NCBI GenBank assembly: GCA_035549555.1
Contig: DASZQR010000010.1
Location: 744,001-808,000 of the forward strand
Reading direction: 5' to 3'
Source of the DNA: Patescibacteria group bacterium
GTDB lineage: Bacteria > Patescibacteriota > Microgenomatia > UBA8517
DNA length: 64,000 nt
Below, piece by piece: positions 1 through 2,762 of this stretch; positions within the stretch are counted from its first letter, which is position 1; the number at the start of each line of letters is the position of its first letter. Under the pieces are notes generated by a model, which saw only the letters and a program-made list of their open reading frames with translations, did not search any database and was not told where the DNA came from. A program made the translations under genes and the position numbers.

Positions 1-203
1 CTGGAATTGGTAAAACACAAGATCAGGTAAAGGCAGCGAAAAATGACGACAATATAAATATTTTAGTTCTTGCAAGCGACTTTACGACAGACGAAGAGGC
101 ACAAAACATGCTTAAAGTTTTTTTAGAAACAAAATTTGATAATTTACCTCGTCACGAAAGAAGGCTGGAAGAAATCAAGAATATAGAAGATAATAAATCA
201 TGA
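1..203 (+). CDS. rpiB: Ribose-5-phosphate isomerase B, C-terminal fragment
   Basis: The window opens inside this gene; the reading frame begins at base 3 and stops at TGA 201-203, giving about 66 residues. The visible part has the RpiB/LacAB C-terminal pattern: a strand ILVLASDF, an acidic stretch, then FLETKFDNLPRHERRLEEI, which matches the family's conserved FLxTxF..xRHxRR ending. RpiB interconverts ribose 5-phosphate and ribulose 5-phosphate in the cytosol. Its stop overlaps the start of the pgk-like gene (ATG 200), and rpe and transketolase lie downstream, so a pentose-phosphate role fits. The catalytic N-terminal part is outside the window. Confidence 0.85.
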   Translation, partial: GIGKTQDQVKAAKNDDNINILVLASDFTTDEEAQNMLKVFLETKFDNLPRHERRLEEIKNIEDNKS

Positions 204-1153
204 TCTCTCTTCCCAAGCTTTCTGATTTTAATTTAACAGGCAAACGCGTAATTGTTCGCGCTGATTTGGATATTTCCCCGGAAGATATAAATAATATTCG
301 TTTAACTTCGCTTTCTCAAACTCTCGATTATCTAAAAAATCAAAATGCATTAATTACAATTATTGGACATCGCGGCCGCCCACAAGGGCTTGATGAAAGC
401 TTAAGTCTAAAGCCTTTTGAACAATATTTTAAAAAATGGGAAGCAAGAGTTTTGGAAAATCTTCGTTTTGACGAAAGAGAAGAAAAAAATGACGAAAGCT
501 TTGCCAAAGAATTGTCAGCAGGTCAGGATTTTTATGTTAATGAAGCTTTTGGCGTAAGCCACCGCGAACACGCATCAATTGTCGGTTTACCGAAATTACT
601 TCCTCATGCAGCAGGCTTTAGGTTTGTTTCTGAAATAGAAAATCTTTCCAAAGTTTTAGAAAACCCGCAAAGACCATTAATTTTTATCATTAGCGGATTA
701 AAAGACGACAAGCTTTCATATATGGAAAGTTTTTTAAAATTATCAGATAAAATTTTAATTGGAGGAAGAATGCCGGATTATATTCACGATGACAGTCCTC
801 TTCGACATAATGAGAAAGTTGTTGTTGCCGACTTATTACCAGACAAAGAAGATATCACTATTCATTCAATTGAAAAGTTTGAAACTGAAATAATAAAATC
901 TAAAACAATAGTTGTAAGTGGCCCAATTGGAAAATTTGAAGAAGAAGGCCACAGGCAGGGGACTTCCCGAGTTTTCTTTAATGTTACAAATAGTAATTCA
1001 TTTAAAATTGCAGGAGGGGGGGATACAGAAACTGCAATTAATTTACTTAATCTAAAAGATAAATTTAATTGGATAAGTGTCGGCGGAGGAGCAATGCTAG
1101 AGTTTCTTGCCAAAGGCACTCTCCCTGGAATTGTTTCCCTTCTTGAAAAATAA
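200..1153 (+). CDS. pgk: Compact phosphoglycerate kinase
   Basis: Catalyses 1,3-bisphosphoglycerate + ADP to 3-phosphoglycerate + ATP. Family landmarks appear in order: KRVIVRADLD (usually RVDFNVP), GHRGRP (usually SHLGRP), LENLRFDEREEKND, YVNEAFGVSHREHAS, SGLKDDK (usually GAKVSDK), GPIGKFEEEG, then AGGGDTETA and VGGGAMLEFLAKGTLPGI at the C-terminus. At 317 aa it is about 75-90 residues shorter than usual PGKs; loops are lost in both domains. The usual Asn of the NVP motif is Asp and the usual Asp of VNDAFG is Glu. The start overlaps the rpiB stop by 4 bp. Identification is strong; full activity is assumed, given the altered substrate-loop residues. Confidence 0.9.
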   Translation: MISLPKLSDFNLTGKRVIVRADLDISPEDINNIRLTSLSQTLDYLKNQNALITIIGHRGRPQGLDESLSLKPFEQYFKKWEARVLENLRFDEREEKNDESFAKELSAGQDFYVNEAFGVSHREHASIVGLPKLLPHAAGFRFVSEIENLSKVLENPQRPLIFIISGLKDDKLSYMESFLKLSDKILIGGRMPDYIHDDSPLRHNEKVVVADLLPDKEDITIHSIEKFETEIIKSKTIVVSGPIGKFEEEGHRQGTSRVFFNVTNSNSFKIAGGGDTETAINLLNLKDKFNWISVGGGAMLEFLAKGTLPGIVSLLEK

Positions 1154-1156
1154 CTT

Positions 1157-1729
1157 ATGCCAAAGCGTTTTATAAATCCATCATTAGCTGACGTTACTGA
1201 AGATATCGCAGGCGCTGTTCCCTTAGAAATTATTCAGAAATGGATTACAAGTAATAAAACAAAAAAACTTCACGAAGATATTTTAAAAAATTATTTAGTT
1301 GAAGGAACCGTCGTTGCATCAGACTCCGCGGGCCTTAGTAAATTAAGTGAAGAATTAGATTTATTGGAAGTTATGAAAATAGTAAGTCATCCTAAAGATT
1401 TAGTTTATAAATACGGCAGCGAAATTGGAGGAGTTGGAATTGGAATATGGGCAGCAGACAATACAGAAATGTTTTATCCAAAATCTGTTTCGCCTAAATT
1501 AATTTATGAGAAAATGCAACAAGTCCAAAAAGAATTAGAAAATTTCTCACTTCACATCGGCATGGCGATTCACTACGGAAAATTTATTAAAATCGGTGGA
1601 GGTTTATTTGGTGATGAAGCAGATTTTGTTGAAGATTTGGCGGAAAATCATACTGAAGGAGGAGAAATAAAATTAACTAAATCCTTTTCTAAATTACTAA
1701 ATGACAAACATATATCCAATACCATTTAA
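1157..1729 (+). CDS. Nucleotidyl-cyclase-like protein A (class III cyclase fold, degenerate)
   Basis: 190 aa with no confident family name. The N-terminal half reads GTVVASDSAGLSKLSEE, like the metal-binding first strand of class III adenylate/guanylate cyclases. Near residues 130-175 it reads LHIGMAIHYGKFIKIGG, then GDEADFVEDLAENHTEGGEI, matching the cyclase succession of an IGI..G strand, a GdaVn.Aarl-like helix and a GEI strand. The usual catalytic Asn/Arg helix is not clear. The gene starts 3 bp after pgk and overlaps the next gene by 29 bp; that gene has the same apparent fold. A regulatory, possibly nucleotide-binding, role in the sugar-phosphate operon is inference. Confidence 0.5.
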   Translation: MPKRFINPSLADVTEDIAGAVPLEIIQKWITSNKTKKLHEDILKNYLVEGTVVASDSAGLSKLSEELDLLEVMKIVSHPKDLVYKYGSEIGGVGIGIWAADNTEMFYPKSVSPKLIYEKMQQVQKELENFSLHIGMAIHYGKFIKIGGGLFGDEADFVEDLAENHTEGGEIKLTKSFSKLLNDKHISNTI

Positions 1730-2261
1730 CAAAGACTTTTACGACGATTTGACTAAAAATTTATCAGATAAAAAAGTTTATGATGCAGTCTATAAAAAAT
1801 ATTCTTTTACAAAAACAGTTATTTTAGTCAAAATCCTTCACCCAAAAAGAAAATTTTTATTAGATGAATTAAGCGATTGGTTGCTTGCAAATTCATTAAT
1901 TGAAAAATTATTAGAATTTCATGAAGTCCAAAAAATTAAATCAAACGGAAGTTTAGGGATTTTTGTTACAGATAAAAATGAAGTAGCAATTAATTTTGCC
2001 AAAGATTTGCAGGATAATTTAAGTGACAATTTTAATATTAGTATTGGTTTATGTCGTGGCAATGTTTTATTATTTGATCTTCAAAAAGAAGGATGGGAAA
2101 TTGCCGGCGGACCGGTAAATGTCGCCAGTAAAATCGCAGAAGATAGTGGAGTTGTAAATAAAATTTTAATTGAAGAATCAGTTAAGCTGCCAAAAAATAT
2201 CAAAGGCGAAAATTTTAAATTTGAAATTTCTCATATTGAGATTTCAGGAGTTGCTATCTGA
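1701..2261 (+). CDS. Nucleotidyl-cyclase-like protein B (class III cyclase fold, degenerate)
   Basis: 186 aa. The C-terminal two-thirds look like a class III cyclase core: KSNGSLGIFVTDKNEVAINF aligns with the family's iKtiGDg..avF strand-loop, ISIGLCRGNVLLFDL with the next strand pair, and IAGGPVNVASKIAEDSG followed by ILIEES with the GdaVNvAaRle..a..G.i.vs helix-strand. Clear metal-binding Asp pairs are missing, so catalysis is doubtful. It overlaps protein A by 29 bp in another frame, so the two are probably translated together and could pair, since class III cyclases work as dimers. The pairing is inference. Confidence 0.5.
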   Translation: MTNIYPIPFNKDFYDDLTKNLSDKKVYDAVYKKYSFTKTVILVKILHPKRKFLLDELSDWLLANSLIEKLLEFHEVQKIKSNGSLGIFVTDKNEVAINFAKDLQDNLSDNFNISIGLCRGNVLLFDLQKEGWEIAGGPVNVASKIAEDSGVVNKILIEESVKLPKNIKGENFKFEISHIEISGVAI

Positions 2262-2762
2262 AAGTTTCATTCTCTCTATAACTTGTTCTGGAAAAATAGG
2301 AACTCTTGCCTGTGCTAGGTCTATTATTTTCATAAGCTCGGTAAAATTTTTAGCATTTAAATCTTTTAGTCTCTCTAGAGAAACCTCATTTATATCTAAC
2401 CTCTCCAATTCTTCTCTTTGCATACGAGACATGAATATGGCCGACATTCCAATCATAAATTTAAAATCCATTTCTAATATAGAAAGTTGTGAACTTCTAG
2501 CTTCTGCAAAGAAAGCGTCTGCGCTAGACTTTATACTGTTAATATCTTCATCTCTAAAACCAGATTTTTGAACTAACTCTTTATATTCTTTACCATCTGC
2601 AAATAGTGAATTGGAATTCGCTTGTGTTAAACTTCTCCTAAAACTAATGATAAACTTTAAACAATCTCCACCAGCCTCAGTAATTGCACCATTTTTTATA
2701 AGTTCCGTTATAAATCTCTCGTCTTCTTGTCTTAGCATTTCATTAGCTCTTTGTTCTGACAT
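2244..2762 (-). CDS. Hypothetical protein, helical
   Basis: 172 aa, unrecognised. It is rich in Glu, Arg, Leu and Ser and looks all-helical, with no signal peptide or membrane segment. It converges on the cyclase-like B gene with an 18 bp tail-to-tail overlap and diverges from gap across 38 bp. It is a single-gene unit on the strand opposite to the glycolytic operon. Gene status rests on the long open frame and normal composition. Confidence 0.6.
   Translation of the reverse strand: MSEQRANEMLRQEDERFITELIKNGAITEAGGDCLKFIISFRRSLTQANSNSLFADGKEYKELVQKSGFRDEDINSIKSSADAFFAEARSSQLSILEMDFKFMIGMSAIFMSRMQREELERLDINEVSLERLKDLNAKNFTELMKIIDLAQARVPIFPEQVIERMKLSDSNS

Follow-up and report, generated by a model that had tools for sequence, protein, structure and literature searches.

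Two overlapping genes in the window, by which we mean the whole 64,000-nucleotide stretch of DNA analysed here, from a Patescibacteria group bacterium with a genome of about 1.01 Mb, together correspond, as two halves, to one gene that other genomes carry intact and that encodes a single chain there. The initial annotation had described overlapping genes of 190 and 186 aa between pgk and gap, and both open reading frames were found, with the exact coordinates given in Table 1. It had also implied two independent degenerate cyclases, for which the fused relatives present in three lineages substitute one ancestral gene in two pieces. The gene relationship, the split, the fold and the complementary pattern of active-site residues were computed, and on these features a split and asymmetric nucleotidyl cyclase of class III, or an ATP sensor, is the most likely identity of the pair, both of these functions being predicted.

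Table 1. The gene pair, the gene 5' of it and the active-site positions, in window coordinates (coordinates of residues are those of their codons; residue roles are assigned by alignment)
Feature	Coordinates	Strand	Description
pgk	200..1153	+	final gene in tpiA-rpiB-pgk; directly 5' of A, 3 nt between them
Gene A, 190 aa	1157..1729	+	C1-like N-terminal half of a tandem class III nucleotidyl-cyclase-like protein
A Asp56 (in SDSAGL)	1322..1324	+	first metal-Asp position (Me1); invariant, 14/14
A Asp101 (in WAADN)	1457..1459	+	second metal-Asp position (Me2); invariant, 14/14; hhalign and MAFFT agree
A Asp156	1622..1624	+	at the place of the transition-state Asn, which is lost; Asp in 14/14
A/B overlap, 29 nt	1701..1729	+	place of the split
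Gene B, 186 aa	1701..2261	+	C2-like C-terminal half; +1 frame relative to A
B Lys44	1830..1832	+	lost first metal-Asp position; most fused relatives have Glu
B Lys80	1938..1940	+	equivalent of purine-binding Lys; Lys in 13/14 B halves
B Ser84	1950..1952	+	second metal-Asp position, lost; Pro, Ser or Asn in relatives
B Glu133	2097..2099	+	equivalent of purine-binding Asp
B Asn140	2118..2120	+	transition-state Asn; invariant, 14/14
B Lys144	2130..2132	+	replaces transition-state Arg; Lys in 14/14 B halves and in single-domain kin

Fused proteins of about 406-436 aa that contain both domains are encoded in one genome of the window's class (G225), in another of the same phylum (G397), in five cyanobacterial genomes and in Microbispora, Nonomuraea and Actinoallomurus. 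The product of A shares 36-50% identity with the N-terminal half of these proteins, and that of B is 43% identical to the fused G225 protein. Relative to the fused proteins, the window lacks about 37 aa between the halves, comprising the linker and the last strands of domain A. The start ATG of B lies exactly at the domain boundary; an in-frame TAA immediately precedes it and rules out any upstream extension of B. In a tree of the halves, all A halves formed one clade and all B halves another, each of them starred, with window A sister to G225 A (98/90) and window B sister to G225 B (100/99). Because each window half is sister to the corresponding half of G225, the simplest reading is that the fused form came first and the split later. 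Long branches meet in this tree, and our claims from it are confined to shallow relations, with none made on the deeper order of A halves, B halves, their single-domain kin and canonical cyclases. We propose that one tandem cyclase-like gene was split, in the lineage of the window, into two overlapping genes that are probably translationally coupled. A programmed +1 frameshift joining A and B was considered and set aside, as no known slippery motif was seen in the overlap when judged by eye. A long stem branch (1.54) unites window B with the B half of G225, and both carry a Glu-to-Lys change at the first metal position; B therefore evolved faster than A in this lineage.

Both split halves are as conserved as those of the fused relative, so there is no visible sign of the split having inactivated them. 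Of the 39 columns of A that are invariant in 12 fused relatives, 34 are kept in window A and 35 in fused G225; of the 34 such columns of B, 23 are kept in window B and 21 in fused G225. The end branches of the window halves, set against those of the fused G225 sister, measure 0.54 versus 0.53 for A and 0.45 versus 0.96 for B. The retention of these columns, together with end branches no longer than those of the sister, points to ongoing selection or to a split that happened very recently. The same two observations weigh against a non-functional split, in which the gene would be an early pseudogene, or the break an artefact of assembly or sequencing in a draft genome, the real or ancestral protein being a single chain. 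A loss of about 37 aa combined with a change of frame also exceeds a simple base-call error, and the start codon of B falls precisely where one domain gives way to the next. We regard such a non-functional split as quite unlikely, even though no relative is split at the same place, none of the genomes compared belonged to the window's own genus, the missing 37 aa take in strands of domain A, and some Microbispora copies of the fused gene also show frame breaks. In one of these the open reading frame ends at 251 aa (L012, 5980-6735), and at L034/L035 (contig C22 of G825) the first 43 residues lie in another frame; these breaks could be decay or sequencing errors.

Structure prediction indicates that each domain has the class III cyclase core fold. 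An AlphaFold2 model of the fused G225 protein, built from a 15-row alignment (pLDDT 81, pTM 0.78), aligned end to end with C1-C2 catalytic cores, with both domains covered. It matched the whole core of human AC5 (8sl4; VIA Z 27.1, 329 residues, rmsd 3.2), human AC9 (6r3q; VIA Z 26.4) and human soluble adenylyl cyclase (VIA Z 22-23), as well as 6yii from Pseudomonas aeruginosa (Z 20.3) over 322 residues, which is nearly the whole model. Window A, folded separately by AlphaFold2 (pLDDT 82, pTM 0.80), matched the class III cyclase domain of Ma1120 (5d0g; VIA Z 16.6, rmsd 2.3, 141 residues), and the fold of window B rests on the fused G225 model and on Pfam and profile matches. Pfam Guanylate_cyc (PF00211) matched window B with an E-value of 0.0014 at 18.7 bits, below the curated cut-off of 21.9 bits, and matched two fused relatives at 22.3 and 23.9 bits; window A had no Pfam or NCBIfam match. 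In hhalign comparisons with single-domain kin, A scored 98.4% and B 99.5%; against canonical cyclases the B halves scored 97.7% and A a weak 18.5%. Compared directly with each other, A and B had no visible relation by BLASTP and no significant profile match by hhalign, and the halves are therefore linked solely through their single-domain kin and their fold. The fold search thus returned a cyclase-like and not an unrelated fold, and the earlier description of both proteins as cyclase-like holds, for A through its predicted structure and for B through the weak Guanylate_cyc match, the profiles and the fused model.

Active-site residues were assigned from a joint MAFFT alignment with single-domain kin and canonical cyclases, backed by hhalign, and are thus alignment-based and not derived from superposition. 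By this alignment, the two metal-binding Asp of class III cyclases are present in A only, in 14 of 14 sequences. Asp56 aligns with the Asp of single-domain kin (LDMSGF) and of canonical cyclases (FADIVGF), and the hairpin that carries Asp101 is equivalent to EADN or IGDA with a one-residue insertion. Because of this insertion and the weak match between A and canonical cyclases, the assignment of the second Asp rests on the single-domain kin. We had also considered that A might have lost its second metal Asp, with Gly at the naive GD position, and dropped this because single-domain kin align AADN with EADN. The Asn/Arg pair is lost from domain A. At the position of Glu133 in B, nearly all cyanobacterial and actinomycete relatives have Asp and one has Gln. 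The transition-state pair is not complete in the family, as Asn is kept and Arg is replaced by Lys in 14/14. The initial annotation had found no clear set of metal Asp pairs in either gene; this must be revised, since A has both Asp56 and Asp101, each in 14/14, and B keeps the complementary residues. Complementary losses are the pattern of the C1 and C2 domains of animal adenylyl cyclases. The losses from A and B appear reciprocal in the same way and would thus give one composite site.

Beyond the computed features, we infer a manner of assembly for the split halves, ATP as the ligand, catalysis and a regulatory second site. The products of A and B would pair head to tail as a heterodimer, an arrangement formed within one chain in the relatives. 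An A-B heterodimer had been suggested from the initial reading of the sequence and is the natural interpretation, because the two halves are covalently joined in the fused relatives. The pair would form a single composite nucleotide site, to which A would give the two metal Asp and B the base-contacting Lys and acid, the Asn and the Lys that stands in for Arg. At the second, pseudo-symmetric site, catalytic residues appear to be gone on both sides and invariant acidic residues kept on A, and this site may be regulatory. The ligand would most likely be ATP with metal, and the reaction most likely slow or conditional formation of a cyclic nucleotide.

The fused relatives combine, in a head-to-tail core, two unlike cyclase domains whose losses complement each other, the C1-like one first; in the window the two domains are on separate chains. 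Evidence against a composite cyclase comes from the transition-state Arg, which is Lys throughout, from the purine-binding Asp, which is Glu in the window, and from window A itself, which lacks the last strands of its domain. The replacement of Arg in B, along with the loss of both its metal sites, would suit a dead pseudo-cyclase that senses ATP or another metabolite, its composite site binding without cyclising and a partner or the pseudo-site relaying its output. Around the pseudo-site positions, A has strongly conserved acidic and loop residues (D155, E158 and ENxTxGxE in the numbering of the fused protein), which suggests binding over plain catalysis, and 6yii, a bacterial structure with two such domains, bears the title of a class III adenylyl cyclase-like ATP-binding protein. 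However, three lineages retain, at one composite site, the Asn and the base Lys as well as the two metal Asp, beyond what simple binding needs, and the Arg-to-Lys replacement also occurs in single-domain kin, which retain the other catalytic positions. We therefore rate a pure sensor as a possible but rather unlikely explanation. That A and B instead form a functional composite-site pair with some predicted cyclase activity seems to us an evenly balanced proposition.

Animal adenylyl cyclases are fused asymmetric pairs with one catalytic and one regulatory site. Like the mammalian membrane and soluble enzymes, the family described here has class III domains in the order C1 then C2, with the metal Asp in the first and the base Lys, acid and Asn in the second; it has one composite and one degenerate site, and the fused model superposes on the whole mammalian core (Z 22-27). 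Unlike them, it is bacterial, has no membrane or other domains, carries Lys for the transition-state Arg and shares 12-16% identity with them, and the window protein is encoded as two genes. Canonical bacterial class III cyclases (Ma1120, Rv1900c, CyaC) resemble the family in the fold of each domain, but their homodimers have two equal sites, whereas in this family two different domains share out the roles. The closest sequence kin of both halves are single-domain class III-like proteins with the motif EADN...NLASK (L019-L023, L040-L048 and L050), which share the Lys for Arg; they differ in having one domain, in keeping the other catalytic positions and in being expected to form symmetric homodimers. 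Three of these single-domain genes (L019, L020 and L021, with EADN...NLASK and Lys for Arg) lie near a gatB-like gene and a small open reading frame for an RNA-binding (RRM-like) protein, across several genomes belonging to a single family within the window's phylum, with identities judged by eye. We put forward, tentatively, that the family is a bacterial counterpart of animal C1-C2 adenylyl cyclase, with divided roles, a single composite site and a conserved regulatory pseudo-site, present in Patescibacteria-like genomes, cyanobacteria and actinomycetes and split in one lineage into a two-gene heterodimeric cyclase.

The structure 6yii (PaPycC) is similar to the family in being bacterial and in having two cyclase-like domains per chain, and differs in sequence, with 11% identity to the fused G225 model protein; a sequence-profile search against the PDB did not find it. 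It reportedly has a swapped, C2-C1 domain order and no cyclase activity. According to a 2022 review, a fused dimeric class III cyclase was unknown in bacteria (PMC9552081). The statement in the initial annotation that no system of this kind had been described is too strong, given the animal C1-C2 layout and the solved bacterial structure 6yii, which has two domains and was later assigned to the clade A PycC proteins (PMC11224242). What is new here is the order of C1 then C2 with divided roles in a soluble bacterial protein, and its split into two genes; 6yii is a two-domain precedent.

The naming of 6yii as a clade A PycC (PMC11224242) also bears on whether the pair could be a Pycsar-type pyrimidine cyclase (PycC) acting in phage defence, as do weak PADLOC matches, with E-values of 0.015 for window B, 0.012 for one fused relative and down to 1e-5 for single-domain kin. 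The base-contacting Lys and acid, however, are of the purine type. Beside the loci read, by eye, no defence effector (a TIR protein, or a membrane protein with a cNMP-binding domain) or other cNMP-binding gene was recognised, and the genome of the window encodes no PF00027 protein. A role as PycC in phage defence is accordingly very improbable. Proteins of the cNMP-binding family PF00027 were absent from G225 and G397 as well, and so none of the three genomes has an obvious receptor for a cyclic product. As a mark of carrier genomes, we discarded this absence as uninformative, since PF00027 is missing from about half of the class.

The gene is sparsely scattered. Among the window genome and 55 others of its family, order and class, it is in 1 of 56. 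Wider searches gave two convincing cases in 374 genomes of the class, 2/380 in a sample of the phylum (where the other matches were single-domain kin), 3/247 in the actinomycete class and 5/244 in cyanobacteria. No further relatives were found in the order around G225. Phages, plasmids and viral contigs were searched without a match, and hence there is no sign of a mobile carrier there.

The initial annotation placed the pair inside a glycolytic operon and proposed a system tied to sugar-phosphate metabolism. The first part is correct on one side, A beginning just past the pgk stop codon at the end of tpiA-rpiB-pgk, all three of which run in the direction of A; on the other side, gap is set apart from B by an open reading frame on the opposite strand, 2244-2762 (-), and none of the relatives examined keeps the location. 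This open reading frame encodes 172 aa of unclear family, with a weak Pfam Death-domain match (E 0.038). The window pgk is itself short (317 aa) and has an atypical ISGLKDDKLS where a GGAK-like motif is expected. Near the pair lie gap, an epimerase, transketolase halves, an aldolase and a PfkB-type kinase, several of these identities being judged by eye. The pair does exist in relatives, in fused form, so it is not absent from all of them as it might have been; it is not next to pgk or gap in any relative examined, and the neighbours differ at every locus read. The glycolytic link is local only, and the proposed sugar-phosphate system is not borne out. A dedicated regulator of glycolytic or pentose-phosphate flux, kept with pgk and gap, would explain why the pair follows tpiA-rpiB-pgk at 3 nt, close to gap and other sugar-phosphate genes; given the different neighbours in every relative examined and the absence of the gene from the other 55 genomes compared at family, order and class level, we consider this highly unlikely.

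The window genome, G225 and G397 each have a separate canonical class III cyclase, and such cyclases occur in 8 of 136 other genomes of the class (9/137 in all). This co-occurrence concerns three genomes, was noticed after the fact and serves as a lead only. In the window genome, the canonical domain is part of a 618-aa membrane protein (FSDIASF, KYIGDA, GDNVNLGSR) encoded at L074, 1571-3427 (-), on contig C10 of G000 at about 213 kb, and its gene adjoins that of a FecR-type-looking protein.

In a class of small genomes where canonical class III cyclases are rare (9/137 genomes), the split pair is a candidate for nucleotide signalling. More broadly, a bacterial family with a C1-C2-like division of labour and a natural split would be a small soluble system in which to probe what advantage asymmetry brings and what the second site does.
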